The notes below the pieces were generated by a model that made no database searches, was not told where the DNA came from, and worked only from the letters and a program-made list of their open reading frames with translations. A stretch of 64,000 nt of DNA, from contig NZ_AMRX01000008.1 of assembly GCF_000300815.1 (NCBI RefSeq), forward strand, positions 620,001 to 684,000. Reading direction: 5' to 3'. Positions 44,470 through 51,810 of the stretch are shown piece after piece (the stretch's first letter is position 1; the number at the start of each line of letters is the position of its first letter). The position numbers and the translations under genes are program-made. The DNA is from Gayadomonas joobiniege G7. Lineage in GTDB: Bacteria; Pseudomonadota; Gammaproteobacteria; Enterobacterales; Alteromonadaceae.

Positions 44470-47400
44470 ATGAATAAAAAGTTAATGATTTTTCTCTACC
44501 TTTGCTTGCTCTGTTTTAGCCAAATAGTGAACGCAAAATCCATGAGTTTAAACGGTGATTGGCAATTTAATACCTTTTTAGGCGATGGATCAGCCTACCG
44601 CCAGATTAGCGTACAAGCACAAGATATTGTAATTGATAATTCACAAACAAATTTAGTTAAAGCGCACGGTAATTGGAAACTGCGCACTGAGCCAGAGCGT
44701 GACAGTCAGCAATGGGGACAAGATTATTTAAAGTTTAATTATTGGCAAGCCAGTCGTGACATTCGGGTAGAGTTTAACTATCCAAACATTAAACCAGGCT
44801 ATTACGAACATTTTGTATTTTACCCATTTGGTGCCAATTTAAATATGCGCTACAGCGTACATCATGCCAACGGCGTGGATGAACACTATATTAGTCAGCG
44901 CAACAAAACTGGCCAATGGGTTAGCTTAGGAATTTATCAAATAGACGATCCAGCGAAAAGCCGTATTCTCGTTTCTAGTAATGCCTCTCAGCCTGGTGTG
45001 GCTGATGCTGTAATGTTACGGCCAGTCAGCGCTGAGGCTTGGCATCAAGCTCAACAGAAAAAAGCAATGGTGATGCAACCAAGCTTTGATGATAGCCAGT
45101 GGCATAGATTAACTGTGCCAGGCCATTGGGGGATGTTAAATCAATACAGCAGTTATACAGGTAAAGGTTGGTATCGAAAACAAGTGTTTTTAGACTCTGA
45201 TTGGCAAGCAGAAAAAAATGAACGTATTTGGTTGCAGTTTGATGGGGTTTATCACCTAGCTAAGGTTTATTTAAATGGCCAATATATTGGCCAGCATAGA
45301 GGTGGTTTTACGCCATTTGAATTTGACGTAACTGAACATATCAAAGCTGGCCAACAAAACCTGTTGGCGGTTCAGGCCGATAATAGCAAAATTGTTGGGG
45401 CGACATGGAATTGGGGAGGCATCATTCGAGATGTTAATTTGCGTAAAACGAAAGATACCCGAATTACCTATCAGTACATACACGCAGAGCCGGATTTAAA
45501 CAAAGGAGATGCGGATTTAACGTTAAAAATGCGGGTAAAAAATTACGCTGATGAAGTCAAAAGTTTAACGTTGAAAGCCGATGTATTGCGCGCATCTGAT
45601 ACGCCTCTAACGCAAATGAAAACTTCTATAAAGTTAGCTGCAAATAGTGAAAAGACCATTGTTTTAAAAAGCAAACTTACGCCTGAACAAGTGGCCCTAT
45701 GGCATTTTGACCGACCGAATTTATACCAACTGAGTAGCCAAGTCTTTGAAAATGAGAAGCTACTCAGTCAACGCACTGATAGATTTGGTATCCGTAAAGT
45801 GGAATTGACTGACTCGCAAATGTTGTTAAATGGCGAAGCTGTGAGAATTGGTGGTTTTAACCGCATCAGCGATCACAGATATTGGGGATCTAGCGAGGCG
45901 TTAGAACTACTAAAACAAGACATACGTTTAATGAAAGATGCTGGCGCTAACTTTATGCGTATTATGCATGGGACCCAGAATAAAAAACTGATTGAGTTAT
46001 GTGATGAAAATGGCATCTTAATTTTTGAAGAAGTAAATGTGCGCACCTTAACCAACCCGGAGTTTCAAGCCCCGGATTATGAGGTTAACCGCCAATGGCT
46101 ACGTGAAATGATCGAAAGAGACATCAATCACCCCAGCATTATAGGTTGGAGTGTCGGCAACGAATTAAAAGATCATTATCGATATGCTCAGCAAATGATT
46201 GCTTACGTTAAAAATGAATTAGATCCGCATCGTCTGGTCACTAACGTCAGTAATACCGGATACCGAGATGGAGATTCTGCGGACAATGATCCTTTGGGGT
46301 TTAGCGATTTAATGATGCAAAACATCTACCAAAAAGATCCTGAAAGAGTCGTCACCACTCTTGCCGAGCGGTGGCCTAATCGTCCGTTATTTATCTCAGA
46401 GTACGGATTAGGTCGTTTCACGACACCTTCGTTAGATAACGATTATCCTAATTTTGCCAGTTGGCATGAGATGATTAGGGGACGCAATACCCATGTCATC
46501 GGCACCTCTATATGGTCATTTAACGACTACCGCAGTGGCTATTCGCAAACACTTGAAGAAGACAATAGAGCTTGGGGTCTTGTCAATGCGTGGCGACAAA
46601 AACGTCGCGCCTACAAAAGGGTACAAGCCGAGATGAGCCCGTTAAAGGCCGTCAAAATGCTTAATTTCAATCTAGCCGAGAAGCAAGCCGAAGTGGTGTT
46701 AGATCCCCGCAATGCCGATGACTATCCAGCTTATCGGATGCAGGATTACCGTCTGCATTGGCAGCTTGTTAATCAGCGGGGCGAGCTATTAGAAGCCTAT
46801 CAACAAAAGCTGCCTACTTTGTCGCCCGCGAGTAAAGATTTGCATCGTAAATTAAGTTGGCAAACTGAAAAAGCAGAGATTTTTGCTTTACAGCTGCAAA
46901 TAAAATCCAGTAATGGTTTTATTCGATATCAGGATAGCTGGCCAATTAAAGCGCCACTATCACCTAAGATAGTCGAAGTAGAAACTTCAAATAACCAGAT
47001 ACGTGTGCATCTCGCCCCGCAAGCGGATGCAAGCGAATTTCAATTAAATTACCGAATATTGGGCGGAGAATGGCAGCAAACCGAACAAACGATAGACCCT
47101 ATTATCACGATCAACAATGTTGAAAAAGGGGCTCAATATCAACTCAAAGCCAACGCTATCAATGACTATGCGAGTACCGCGGCTAAGCAATTGCAAACAG
47201 TCACCGCAAAAGGCGCGCAACTGGCTCCGAGGATATGGTTTCAAATGATTAGAGATAAGCGTTTGATCATTGGTTTTACTGGCCATATCAGCGACCAACA
47301 ATATCAATTAGAGTATGGGCTTGATCCAAACCAGTTCACACACTCAGAACGCCTTTATGCTAGAGGTATGATAACCGCTGAGTTAGCTGATATGCGTGGC

Positions 47401-47481
47401 GTTATTTATTATCGATTGCGCAGAGTCACTGAACAAGGAACCAGTCAATGGAGCTCAATTAAACAAATCAAACATCTATGA
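44470..47481 (+). CDS. Large exported GH2 with nested golvesin-like domain
   Basis: A 1003-residue GH2. After a signal peptide (cut near VNAKS), the jelly roll begins (MSLNGDWQFNTF) but is interrupted at about residues 37-190. The insert has the golvesin/Xly CBD-like layout (WQASRDIRVEFNYPNIKPGYYEHF, QWVSLGIYQI, ADAVMLRPV). The jelly roll then resumes (WHRLTVPGHWG, GKGWYRKQVF). The TIM barrel carries acid/base Glu565 in SVGNEL and likely nucleophile Glu644 in FISEYG. The C-terminus has fibronectin III-like modules. Note that the arm is HGTQ rather than HNPP near IMHG. It should cleave beta-galactosides; the insert may add substrate binding. An AGG-containing site precedes the ATG. Confidence 0.86.
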   Translation: MNKKLMIFLYLCLLCFSQIVNAKSMSLNGDWQFNTFLGDGSAYRQISVQAQDIVIDNSQTNLVKAHGNWKLRTEPERDSQQWGQDYLKFNYWQASRDIRVEFNYPNIKPGYYEHFVFYPFGANLNMRYSVHHANGVDEHYISQRNKTGQWVSLGIYQIDDPAKSRILVSSNASQPGVADAVMLRPVSAEAWHQAQQKKAMVMQPSFDDSQWHRLTVPGHWGMLNQYSSYTGKGWYRKQVFLDSDWQAEKNERIWLQFDGVYHLAKVYLNGQYIGQHRGGFTPFEFDVTEHIKAGQQNLLAVQADNSKIVGATWNWGGIIRDVNLRKTKDTRITYQYIHAEPDLNKGDADLTLKMRVKNYADEVKSLTLKADVLRASDTPLTQMKTSIKLAANSEKTIVLKSKLTPEQVALWHFDRPNLYQLSSQVFENEKLLSQRTDRFGIRKVELTDSQMLLNGEAVRIGGFNRISDHRYWGSSEALELLKQDIRLMKDAGANFMRIMHGTQNKKLIELCDENGILIFEEVNVRTLTNPEFQAPDYEVNRQWLREMIERDINHPSIIGWSVGNELKDHYRYAQQMIAYVKNELDPHRLVTNVSNTGYRDGDSADNDPLGFSDLMMQNIYQKDPERVVTTLAERWPNRPLFISEYGLGRFTTPSLDNDYPNFASWHEMIRGRNTHVIGTSIWSFNDYRSGYSQTLEEDNRAWGLVNAWRQKRRAYKRVQAEMSPLKAVKMLNFNLAEKQAEVVLDPRNADDYPAYRMQDYRLHWQLVNQRGELLEAYQQKLPTLSPASKDLHRKLSWQTEKAEIFALQLQIKSSNGFIRYQDSWPIKAPLSPKIVEVETSNNQIRVHLAPQADASEFQLNYRILGGEWQQTEQTIDPIITINNVEKGAQYQLKANAINDYASTAAKQLQTVTAKGAQLAPRIWFQMIRDKRLIIGFTGHISDQQYQLEYGLDPNQFTHSERLYARGMITAELADMRGVIYYRLRRVTEQGTSQWSSIKQIKHL

Positions 47482-47664: not shown

Positions 47665-49350
47665 GTGGGGATTATCGACCTGAGCGTCATAGGTATTTTT
47701 ACCTTGTTAGTTTTAGGCTGCGGCATGAGTTTTTCAAATGCCGGTAAAAATATGAAGTCATTCTTTTCGGCAGGTGGTGCTTTACCTTGGTGGATGAGCG
47801 GTTTGTCTTTGTATATGAGCTTTTTTTCATCTGGTACTTTTGTTGTTTGGGGATCAATTGCTTATACATCAGGTTGGGTCGCAGTTACGATCCAATGGAC
47901 CATGTGTTTGGCCGGTTTTATTATTGGCTTTTTTATTGCGCCGCGTTGGCAAAAAACACGCGTGGTGACTGCCGCCGAATTTATTCGTATTCGTTTAGGT
48001 GGTCGTTATCAAAAAATATACGCCAGTATTTTTTTAGCTATTTCTGTACTCTCAACCGGCGCGTTTTTATACCCAGTTGCCAAATTGTTAGAAGTTTCAA
48101 CGGGTGCCCCTTTGGCAACCACCATTATTGTCTTAGGCATTATTATTTTAGCTTATACCGCGGTTGGCGGTTTATGGGCAGTAATCGTAACCGATATTTT
48201 GCAATTTGTGGTTCTGGCTGCAGCCGTGATTATCGTGGTTCCTTTGTCGCTTGATTTAATCGGTGGTATCGGCAATTTTGTTGAAAAAGCACCAGAAGGC
48301 TTTTTTAACCTAGTTAATGATGAATACACTTGGGCGTTTATTTTTGCATTTGGTTTATATAATTTATTCTTCATTGCTGGCAACTGGGCCTATGTGCAGC
48401 GTTATACCAGTGTGGGCAGTGAAAAAGATGCCAAAAAGGTTGGCTGGTTATTTGGTGGTTTATATACCATAAGCCCTGTTATTTGGATGTTAGCCCCTAT
48501 GATATACCGAGCTTTATACCCAGACTTAGAGGGGTTAGCTGATGAAGGTGCTTACCTAATGATGTGTAAAGAAGTTTTACCTGTTGGCATGATGGGTTTA
48601 ATGTTAGGCGGGATGATTTTTGCAACCTCTAGTTCAATTAATACCTCATTAAATATTGCTGCGGGTGTGATAACCAATGACGTATTTAAGCAGTTAAAAC
48701 CTAATGCAAGCCAAGCGCAATTGGTTAAAGTTGGACGAATAGCCACTATTCTATTAGGGTTTGTCACCATAGTTGTGGCTTTATTAGTCCCTAATTTAGG
48801 TGGCATTGTTGAAGTGGTTATGAGCCTAGCCGCATTAACAGGTGGTGCATTGTTTTTGCCACCGATTTGGCTGTTATTTTCAAAATATCAAACTGGACAA
48901 AGTATTTTAACCACTTCGTTAGTGACCTTAGCGCTAAACGGATATTTTAAATTTGTTAGCCCTGCATTGTTTGATTTTTCGTTAACTCGAGCACAAGAAA
49001 TGATGTTAGGGGTATTAGCGCCGGTTATTATTTTGACTATTTTTGAAATTTTTCTGCGAGCCAAAGGCAAAGAATCACCCCAGTATCAGAACTTAGTGCA
49101 GTTCCGCCTTGATAAAGCCAATGAAGACGCAACGGTCGAAGTGCAACAAGAAGCCAGTAACGAAAATAAAAAAGGTATCCGCGTTATTGGTACCGGCGTT
49201 GCTGCAACGGGTTGCATCATGTTGGTTTTGACTTTGTTTGCTGATAAAGGTGTCATGATAGTAGCGCTAATGGGGGCATTTATTTTAGCAATTGGCAGCC
49301 TAATTTTAATAAAAAACAAACCGGCCAAGCGGGTTGAAGGGAGTTTGTAA
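47665..49350 (+). CDS. Sodium:solute symporter (SSS family)
   Basis: A 561-residue SLC5-type transporter with about 13-14 hydrophobic helices. The segment SGLSLYMSFFSSGTFVVWGS and the later MLGGMIFATSSSINTSLNIAAGV match the sodium- and sugar-binding helices of the family. A GTG start at 47665 with AAGAGGG upstream is used. It overlaps nothing, but GH117 begins one base after its stop, so both are probably co-expressed. It likely imports neoagarobiose-like disaccharides or anhydrogalactose for cytoplasmic cleavage. The upstream gap contains a TTTACA/TGTAAA-like region near 47620. Confidence 0.85.
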   Translation: MGIIDLSVIGIFTLLVLGCGMSFSNAGKNMKSFFSAGGALPWWMSGLSLYMSFFSSGTFVVWGSIAYTSGWVAVTIQWTMCLAGFIIGFFIAPRWQKTRVVTAAEFIRIRLGGRYQKIYASIFLAISVLSTGAFLYPVAKLLEVSTGAPLATTIIVLGIIILAYTAVGGLWAVIVTDILQFVVLAAAVIIVVPLSLDLIGGIGNFVEKAPEGFFNLVNDEYTWAFIFAFGLYNLFFIAGNWAYVQRYTSVGSEKDAKKVGWLFGGLYTISPVIWMLAPMIYRALYPDLEGLADEGAYLMMCKEVLPVGMMGLMLGGMIFATSSSINTSLNIAAGVITNDVFKQLKPNASQAQLVKVGRIATILLGFVTIVVALLVPNLGGIVEVVMSLAALTGGALFLPPIWLLFSKYQTGQSILTTSLVTLALNGYFKFVSPALFDFSLTRAQEMMLGVLAPVIILTIFEIFLRAKGKESPQYQNLVQFRLDKANEDATVEVQQEASNENKKGIRVIGTGVAATGCIMLVLTLFADKGVMIVALMGAFILAIGSLILIKNKPAKRVEGSL

Positions 49351-49351
49351 A

Positions 49352-50548
49352 ATGACAAAAACAACTCAAAGTGCGGGTTATCCTTGGGATATTCCCCAAA
49401 CAAAGCCGCAGCGTAAATTAAGTGCGGCAATGGAGCGCCTGTACGATAACTATTTAACACCGCGTCCAGAAGATAACCCCTTATCTACTGCGTTTAAATA
49501 TACCCGTTTATCCGGGTTTGATTATAACGGCGATAACGGCACAGTTAGCCGTCGAGATCCCTCTAAAATTATTAAACATCAAGGACGTTATTATGTTTGG
49601 TATACCAAAAGGGATACGCAGACCCCTCCAAGAGGTGCGCAGCATTGTTCTGAAACCATACCATCAACCGATTGGGACTTAGCAGAAATCTGGTATGCAA
49701 CCAGCGAAGACGGATTTCATTGGCAAGAGCAGGGCGTTGCAGTGGCCCGCCCACCAGCGCCTGAGGTCGGCTGTCGCTCGGTATCGACACCCGATATATT
49801 ATCTTGGCAAGGAAAATATTATCTATACTATCAGGCTTTTAACGAACCTAGTGGTTTAAAAGGCGACCATTGCCCTGTCACCATGTCTTTTGCCGATTCA
49901 CCAGAGGGTCCGTGGCAAGCGTGTGGAAAAGTTGTGGTTGAGAATGGTGCGCCAGGGGAGTGGGATCAGTTTTCGATTCATGATCCTTATTTATTGGTTT
50001 ATCAAAACAAGATCCATCTATATTACAAAGCGGCTTATGGCGATAGACCCGATTATTTGGTTGGCAATGGCGTTGCCATAGCCGACAGCCCATTTGGACC
50101 CTTTAACAAACATCCGTTAAATCCAATTTTAAACTCTGGCCATGAAACGGCTTATTTTAAATTTAGGCAAGGTATTGCTGCTTTAGTCACCCGAAACGGG
50201 AACGAGCATAGCAGTATTCAGTATGCAAATGATGGTGTGAATTTTGAGTTGGCATCGGTCAGTGCGTTAATGCCAGTGGCAGCCGGCGCATTTGTACCGG
50301 ATGCTTTTATAAACACGGATAGCGGGTTAGGTATTAATTGGGGACTTTCTCATTTTTCTGACAAAAAAGACCCGAGCACTAAACACAGTTTTTTAGGACG
50401 TTTTGACTGTAATTTATTGGCAGATCCTAGCAGTCAAGGGTTAGCCAAAAGTGAGTTAAAAGAAACCGATTTAGTGATAGATCCTGACGTATTTTTTAGT
50501 CAAAGTTTAACGCCAGCTCAGCTGGCTCAACGATCAAAAAACTTCTAA
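49352..50548 (+). CDS. Cytoplasmic GH117 alpha-1,3-(3,6-anhydro-L-galactosidase)-like enzyme
   Basis: A 398-residue GH117 five-bladed propeller. Seen are YDNYLTPRPEDNPL, the GTVSRRDPSKII segment with the catalytic Asp69, the IHDPY segment and the NSGHET motif whose His is the proposed acid in characterised neoagarobiose hydrolases. No signal peptide is present. The start at 49352 follows GAAGGGAG in the end of the symporter gene. Known family members release 3,6-anhydro-L-galactose from neoagaro-oligosaccharides. Being next to a symporter, it would act after uptake. It is a paralogue of the exported GH117 at 61048. Activity on agar-type disaccharides is likely; some GH117 clades have no known substrate. 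Confidence 0.88.
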   Translation: MTKTTQSAGYPWDIPQTKPQRKLSAAMERLYDNYLTPRPEDNPLSTAFKYTRLSGFDYNGDNGTVSRRDPSKIIKHQGRYYVWYTKRDTQTPPRGAQHCSETIPSTDWDLAEIWYATSEDGFHWQEQGVAVARPPAPEVGCRSVSTPDILSWQGKYYLYYQAFNEPSGLKGDHCPVTMSFADSPEGPWQACGKVVVENGAPGEWDQFSIHDPYLLVYQNKIHLYYKAAYGDRPDYLVGNGVAIADSPFGPFNKHPLNPILNSGHETAYFKFRQGIAALVTRNGNEHSSIQYANDGVNFELASVSALMPVAAGAFVPDAFINTDSGLGINWGLSHFSDKKDPSTKHSFLGRFDCNLLADPSSQGLAKSELKETDLVIDPDVFFSQSLTPAQLAQRSKNF

Positions 50549-50562
50549 GAGACAACACGAAT

Positions 50563-51810
50563 ATGAAACAAACGATAGCGGCATCAGCAGCGCTTATTTT
50601 TTTATTTGGTTGCCAAAACCAGCCACAAGCAAATACAACACAAAATTATCAACCACAAGTTGATGATAATAAGTTCAATCCAAGTCAGTGGCAACTAGCT
50701 TGGCAAGATGAATTTGATGGTCCCGACGCTGAATTAGAACAAGTTTGGGATGTGCAAAATAGTCCAAGTGGACACATCTTATCCAGCCGGTGGCGTGAAA
50801 ACGTAAAAGTAGGAGACGGGGTTTTATATTTACAGAACCGAAAAGAAAAACGGGGCGGTCAAGATTGGACTTCTGGCAGTATTCGAACAAAAGAACAGTT
50901 TGGATACGGCTATTACGAAGCTAGATACAAATATGCAGCATCGAACGGCACCAATAACTCTTTTTGGTTAATGACCTACCCATTAAACCAAGAGATTAAA
51001 AAAGGTAAAAAGTTCGAGATAGACATTAACGAAGGACATTACCCAAACGAAGTAAATACTAATATTCATAACTGGAGTGATATTACCACTCGACCTGATG
51101 GTCGAAAAACGCACCCGAGCGATAGCCGAACAAAGAGTTATGGCGCCAAACCTGAATATAAGTTTCCGCTCGAAATTCCGGTGACTACACAAAAGATACG
51201 TTTTATTTCAAATGACTTAAATTATGTTCATTTGCGTGATTTTAGTGTTTATGGCCTTGGCGGGGCAGTAAAAGGGAAAAACCTTGCTTTAGATAAGCAA
51301 GTAAGGATTTTAACGAGTGGCCAGCGCAACGCTAAATTCAAAGCACAAAATATGCTGGGCCCTAACAGTGCAAGCTGGACATCTCAGCTAAAAGGCGATA
51401 AGTGGGTTGTTTTAGAATGGCCAGAAGAAAAAACCATCGAAGAGATTCATTTTGCTAATGGCTGGAGTAAAAACAATAAAGGTTGGGCTGGTTTAACGCA
51501 GAATTTTAAATTGCAATATTATAAAAATGGGCAATGGCATGATGTTGCCAGCTTAGATGTTGAAAATGACGTTAACTTTGCCGACGAGTACCATACTTGG
51601 GGGTTGGAGTGGAACGAGCAAGAGATTGTATTTTATTTTGACGGCAAAGAGATACGCCGAGAAAAAAATGAGTTTGCACATAGCCCATCACCGATTTGGT
51701 TAAGTTTAGCAATCATCAAATGGGACGGACCAGTAACAGATAAAATTAATGGTACCAGCATGAAAGTGGATTATGTGCGTTATTATAAAAAAGTAGCGGA
51801 CGCTAAATAA
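50563..51810 (+). CDS. GH16 lipoprotein with inserted discoidin-like domain
   Basis: A 415-residue GH16 with lipobox LFGC (Cys17). The catalytic motif EIDINE has Glu152, Asp154 and Glu157. The first half of the fold (WQDEFDGPDAELEQVWDV through NIHNWSD) is followed by about 145 residues (roughly 195-338) that look like an F5/8 type C (discoidin) module. The fold is then completed by YHTWGLEWNEQEIVFYFDGK and VDYVRYY. The insert seems rearranged: a stretch like the end of a discoidin domain (IRFISNDLNYVHLRDFSVYG) comes before one like its start (GKNLALDKQ, WVVLEWPEEKTIEEI). It is probably a surface endo-hydrolase for agar- or carrageenan-type chains; the subfamily is uncertain. Confidence 0.82.
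   Translation: MKQTIAASAALIFLFGCQNQPQANTTQNYQPQVDDNKFNPSQWQLAWQDEFDGPDAELEQVWDVQNSPSGHILSSRWRENVKVGDGVLYLQNRKEKRGGQDWTSGSIRTKEQFGYGYYEARYKYAASNGTNNSFWLMTYPLNQEIKKGKKFEIDINEGHYPNEVNTNIHNWSDITTRPDGRKTHPSDSRTKSYGAKPEYKFPLEIPVTTQKIRFISNDLNYVHLRDFSVYGLGGAVKGKNLALDKQVRILTSGQRNAKFKAQNMLGPNSASWTSQLKGDKWVVLEWPEEKTIEEIHFANGWSKNNKGWAGLTQNFKLQYYKNGQWHDVASLDVENDVNFADEYHTWGLEWNEQEIVFYFDGKEIRREKNEFAHSPSPIWLSLAIIKWDGPVTDKINGTSMKVDYVRYYKKVADAK

Follow-up and report, generated by a model that had tools for sequence, protein, structure and literature searches.

The window, by which we mean the whole stretch of 64,000 nucleotides analysed here, encodes a GH16 glycoside hydrolase whose sandwich is split by an insert. 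Judged from its sequence, this insert is almost certainly one complete discoidin-like (F5/8C) domain, circularly permuted and nested in the GH16. Our explanation of the whole, to which we give a probability of about 60%, is that the permuted insert would act as a built-in binding module, its apical loops facing the GH16 and galactan being held beside the cleft.

The GH16 protein and its insert

The GH16 gene (50563..51810; this and all features of the protein on the + strand) is a whole frame of 415 amino acids with its stop codon. Pfam PF00722 (GH16) scored 67.3 bits in all against a cut-off of 22, split over two stretches. In the genome search the GH16 profile likewise matched in two pieces, 12-97 and 42-174, the latter of which begins within the insert. 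The NCBIfam matches of the protein were all far under their cut-offs. A signal peptide with a lipobox-like LFGC and Cys17 (50613 being its last position, 50563 its first) was read by eye from the sequence, and the enzyme is probably secreted as a lipoprotein. The first half of the sandwich (50680..51144, residues ~40-194) contains the complete ExDxxE catalytic motif E152-I-D154-I-N-E157 (51016..51033), and E152, D154 and E157 were invariant in 23 of 23 rows of the GH16 alignment; the second half covers 51577..51795 (residues 339-411). An AlphaFold2 model of the mature protein (pLDDT 84.4, pTM 0.75) was less sure than that of the insert alone. The top Foldseek match of this full model in the PDB was 8ep4 (E 1.1e-13, TM by target 0.72), in keeping with a GH16 beta-sandwich fold. 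8ep4 is a GH16_14 methyl-porphyranase (PMC12316285); its chain of ~265 residues is too short for such an insert.

The sequence-only reading had placed about 145 residues between the two GH16 halves, and indeed residues ~195-338 (51145..51576), 144 amino acids that were folded alone as a unit, lie there, in the loop preceding the conserved FHTYGLEW-type strand of GH16. It had further claimed that a segment like the end of an F5/8C domain precedes one like its start. This order was confirmed. The C-terminal part comes first (51151..51255, residues 197-231; PEYKFPLEIPVTTQKIRF...RDFSVYG) and is followed by a linker from the old C- to the old N-terminus (51256..51276, residues 232-238) and by the N-terminal part (51277..51573, residues 239-337; KNLALD...TSW...KWVVLEW...QWHDVASLD). 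The G+C content of the insert (38.7%) is close to that of the GH16 parts before (40.4%) and after it (39.7%) and to that of the window (40.6%). Hence there is no sign of a recent import of the insert.

Strand order of the insert

The circular permutation is well supported by a swap test, shuffled controls, crossed profile alignments and the autonomous model of the insert. For the swap test, part 1 was moved behind part 2 in five inserts (out of the 52 later counted). This raised the best F5/8C score in all five: PF00754 went from 30.2 to 43.1, from 37.6 to 48.7, from 28.2 to 42.1 and from 20.1 to 31.5 bits, and the window insert from 17.9 to 23.6 bits with F5_F8_type_C_2, still under the cut-off of 27.8. 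The Pfam match also became longer, e.g. from PF00754 positions 2-82 to 2-114. The true swap scored above a shuffled part 1 in ten of ten controls (two shuffles for each of the five inserts); a shuffled tail alone gained as much as 4.3 bits compared with the unswapped sequence.

For profile-profile comparison, 25 ordinary F5/8C domains, taken from 33 matches in six genomes, served as the reference. In natural order the insert profile gave two crossed matches: its columns 75-150, the second part, aligned to canonical columns 14-87 (score 65.9), and its columns 6-38, the first part, to columns 98-131 (40.4). The rotated profile gave a single alignment of 115 columns (score 98.9, E 3.2e-17), and homology over the whole domain appeared only in this rotated form. 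When the C columns were shuffled once, the first match alone survived (66.0). Thus the insert does not have the canonical F5/8C strand order; its C part stands before its N part. Against the PDB, the profile matched the CBM32 chains 4a42 (9.3e-7) and 2jd9 (7.7e-6) via the second part. In 7rga (E 6.5e-4), residues 24-103 matched profile columns 78-151 and residues 116-145 columns 6-33, the latter with 5.1 bits.

AlphaFold2 predicted with confidence that the insert alone folds as an all-beta domain in its own right (pLDDT 90.2, pTM 0.86). Neither a fold other than a jelly roll nor a normal strand order turned up; a jelly roll is suggested by this model together with sequence homology. A sequential Foldseek search of the insert model against the PDB returned no F5/8C structure and no significant match (best E 0.053). 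This is expected when a sequential aligner meets a permuted fold; it also leaves the jelly roll a predicted one. The insert resembles the F5/8C or discoidin and CBM32 domains (PF00754, PF22633; CpGH89 CBM32-6, 4a42) in profile, in predicted all-beta fold and in its candidate apical sugar positions. It differs from the ordinary ones in being permuted and nested, whereas those are appended and have their ends at the base.

Two other readings of the anatomy have to be weighed. The tail of one broken F5/8C domain could stand beside the head of another, as tandem arrays of ordinary domains are known (locus L126) and two GH16s (L095 and L096) carry parts in the order C-N-C-N. This is very improbable, however, for the insert is as long as a single domain, its two parts stay side by side across three phyla, the pair modelled alone reached a pLDDT of 90, and rotation yields one continuous alignment. 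Tandem F5/8C copies are rather the likely route of origin. We give marginally less credence still to the idea that the insert belongs to another beta-sandwich family merely resembling F5/8C. The Foldseek result would fit it, as would the window insert, which alone stays under the Pfam cut-offs (F5_F8_type_C_2 17.9 bits, no PF00754 match) and is divergent. Yet PF00754 matched 18 of the 23 aligned members in natural order at E <= 1 (best 2.6e-9), and the 4a42 match and the E value of the rotated profile speak against it as well. A permuted discoidin-like domain thus remains the preferred reading. Such permuted nested domains are easily overlooked, since ordinary profiles match only part of them.

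Hosts and distribution of the insert

In a scan of 166 loci, 64 segments matched the permuted profile, five of which were set aside before the classes were counted: an ordinary tandem (L126), an ordinary domain (L129), a partial segment of undecided order (L056:3194), a fragment (L046:1276) and a segment in a GH16 at a contig end (L056:4863). In L126, an N-C-N-C tandem, the normal-order profile scored 44.0 against 37.3 for the permuted one; in L129 the scores were 75.2 and 46.4. There were 52 inserts between GH16 halves, in 50 proteins from three phyla, six inserts in Ig-like hosts and one (L125) elsewhere. Homologues thus do keep the insert, though some GH16s of the same group are without it.

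In L095 and L096, two inserts stand in tandem within one GH16. These are GH16s of two Opitutales MAGs (L095, 2052-4214; L096, 2111-4276) with permuted units in the order C-N-C-N. The middle N-C pair of L095 reads as an ordinary F5/8C domain (Pfam 259-367, profile 3-117), and the pairing of the halves is ambiguous.

The six other nested inserts, L128 among them, occur in six multidomain proteins of three Chitinophagaceae-type genomes (G299, G301, G826). A stretch like 'SSGLPV.F.SSNT' precedes the insert and one like 'ITA.Q.GDEN' follows it, and by our reading of these sequences the interrupted host is an Ig-like domain. When the flanks of two such hosts were joined, Pfam gave one weak match to Baseplate_J (0.011) and nothing for the other. 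L090, which encodes a protein of this type, also has an uninterrupted copy of the host domain at 1345-1422 (29.6 bits, E 5e-8) and, additionally, an insert-free GH16. The remaining protein, L125 (1590-3959, - strand; 790 amino acids), has a permuted discoidin domain near its N-terminus; a GH16 that is only distantly related and a Golvesin_C domain follow. A concanavalin-like host was considered for it and not adopted, as Pfam gave no match in the host region.

In most relatives the linker is about 20 amino acids long and contains Tyr-Pro; that of the window is short and without Tyr-Pro. The two residues are present in 88% and 83% of the 52 GH16-nested rows and in six of six Ig-nested rows. This common feature suggests that the domain was permuted once and only then spread from one kind of host to another. 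The tree of the inserts is compatible with a single permutation and weak at depth (SH-aLRT 94 for the Ig group, 77 for permuted versus ordinary domains).

Searches of larger genome samples gave counts that are lower bounds, as a limited number of candidates was scored per genome. The domain profile matched one of 395 genomes of a Bacteroidota-wide sample at E 1e-12, namely the centre genome, so the domain is rare there. With the centre genome counted in each case, it matched 3 of 294 genomes in the family of G299, a Chitinophagaceae MAG (at 1e-9), and 7 of 249 in that of the Algibacter genome G295. At order level, centres again included, matches came from 2 of 198 genomes for G304 (a Paludibacter MAG) and from 6 of 177 for G306 (an Opitutales MAG), two of these six being ordinary F5/8C on inspection. 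In the window's own family, a whole-protein search found a near full-length relative in 9 of 295 genomes, its own included (11 places). Among 72,556 plasmid records there were two matches, one from Catenovulum adriaticum (65.8%) and one from Persicobacter psychrovividus (34.9%). The insert of the former duplicates one in G085, which belongs to the window's genus, and was left out for this reason. The window's own genome has another insert-bearing GH16 (G000 C1:234702-235874, L130), which is 45% identical to the first. Genome G1157, which is probably that of L046, Flavicella sediminum, contains, beside two intact inserts, an additional one (L145; L046 1276-1674) that has decayed and is broken by stop codons.

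A tree of the GH16 parts alone was built from 62 rows, 52 of them with insert; a few rows are the same gene cut differently. Nine distant insert-free rows of 73 and then two more insert-free long branches had been left out of the GH16 trees. The insert label needs six changes on this tree, at least four of them forced by well-supported branches. A single insert-bearing clade was rejected (p-AU 0.0002), and insert-free GH16s branch among the insert-bearing ones. The insert-free rows L069 and L147:143 are on long branches and their placement is unsure. The clearest case is L057 from a Mariniphaga MAG, an insert-free GH16 that is 88% identical to the insert-bearing L051 in its GH16 part and forms a clade (99/98) together with three rows that have the insert. 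In its genome the domain profile found no match at E 1e-9. From these sequences we read L057 as a loss of the insert, though in a MAG an assembly fault could have the same effect. The ExDxxE motif is kept in six of six close insert-free GH16s; the insert is therefore dispensable for the GH16 core. GH16 paralogues with and without the insert occur near each other in three genomes (L139, L147, L043/L098). Such natural pairs offer a test of what a built-in module does.

Possible role and gene neighbourhood

In the ordinary F5/8C fold, the sugar-binding loops are at the apex and the chain ends at the base. In the permuted domain, the linker would join the old ends at the base. The new ends would fall between the strand ending in WxDI and the strand FxLxxPV, i.e. 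in an apical loop, if strands alternate as in the ordinary topology. The domain would then hang from its host by the binding end. The sugar sites of CBM32s sit in apical or edge loops (PMC5291390, PMC3313936); in CpGH31 CBM32-1, the site, to which Gly1021-Asn1022-Gly1023 and Phe1085 belong, is described as lying in variable loops at the apex (PMC5291390). A structural calcium site is reported for CBM32s, too. Because the new chain ends would lie at the apex, where CBM32s bind sugar, the binding face would point at the host. The insert could thus be a built-in carbohydrate-binding module, unlike a tethered module that faces away, and its apical loops, with N299-G300-W301, H223 and possibly W272, would be turned towards the GH16 so that a galactan chain is held beside the catalytic cleft. 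N299-G300-W301 (51457..51465) is a candidate sugar-contact loop by comparison with the CBM32 papers.

The candidate positions are conserved in both kinds of host. In the 52 GH16-nested and six Ig-nested rows, respectively, H223 is found in 75% and 100%, W272 in 96% and 100%, N299 in 75% and 83%, and G300 in all; the W301 position has Trp in 90% of the GH16-nested rows and an aromatic residue in six of six Ig-nested rows. W272 is presumably a common F5/8C core position and hence less telling for a ligand. That the candidate apical residues are common to copies in different hosts favours ligand over host contact. This bears on the main alternative, in which the permuted discoidin insert is structural, bracing a long GH16 loop or stabilising the fold with no sugar bound. 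Such a role would fit the intact catalytic motif of the close insert-free relatives, which makes the insert optional, and not all discoidin-like domains are lectins. However, bracing of one host would not predict that copies in hosts unrelated to each other have residues of the candidate sugar-binding loops in common, and we consider a purely structural role unlikely.

A broader picture can tentatively be drawn, which we regard as possible but less likely than not. A distinct discoidin lineage that was permuted once would have lived since then as insertions. With its ends at the ligand-binding apex, the module could enter loops of beta-sandwich hosts that are unrelated to each other (GH16, Ig-like and perhaps others), turn its binding face against the host and form composite binding sites; gain, duplication and loss would each affect the whole module. 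Carbohydrate-active enzymes commonly use F5/8C domains as binding modules. The nested permuted form would show how permutation alters which side of a module faces the enzyme.

Work of Montanier from 2010 reportedly links two calcium-dependent CBM families, CBM36 and CBM60, by circular permutation, and TOS1 is said to be a permuted 1,3-beta-glucanase. These are natural circular permutations in carbohydrate-active proteins, as here, but the families differ, and the titles of these works say nothing of nesting. Paenibacillus LamA combines the same two types of domain, but carries its discoidin domain at the carboxyl terminus (PMC2789033). Some insertional domains of RNA polymerase are themselves circularly permuted (PMC13114784). 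Insertion and permutation occur together there as here, while the domains are unrelated; the terms 'carbohydrate' and 'galactose-binding' are absent from the main text of that paper. Among the top-ranked results in the open-licence literature, none described a glycoside hydrolase with a permuted F5/8C domain nested in it, which does not prove absence.

In the neighbourhood of the gene, the window encodes two sulfatases and a sodium:solute symporter as well as a GH2 and a GH117-like protein (49334..50548, + strand; 4u6d E 1.1e-155, 4ak5 anhydro-alpha-L-galactosidase 6.3e-57). This gene context points to a sulfated algal galactan as the probable substrate. On the Catenovulum and Persicobacter plasmids, too, the GH16 is near GH2, symporter and other GH genes. 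In the GH2 of the window (44470..47481, + strand), a Golvesin_C match at residues 53-183 follows the LNGDWQF start and stands ahead of the match to the GH2 N-domain, which opens at profile position 21. By its sequence, this may be a further case of nesting, one domain lying inside a host domain, within the same cluster.
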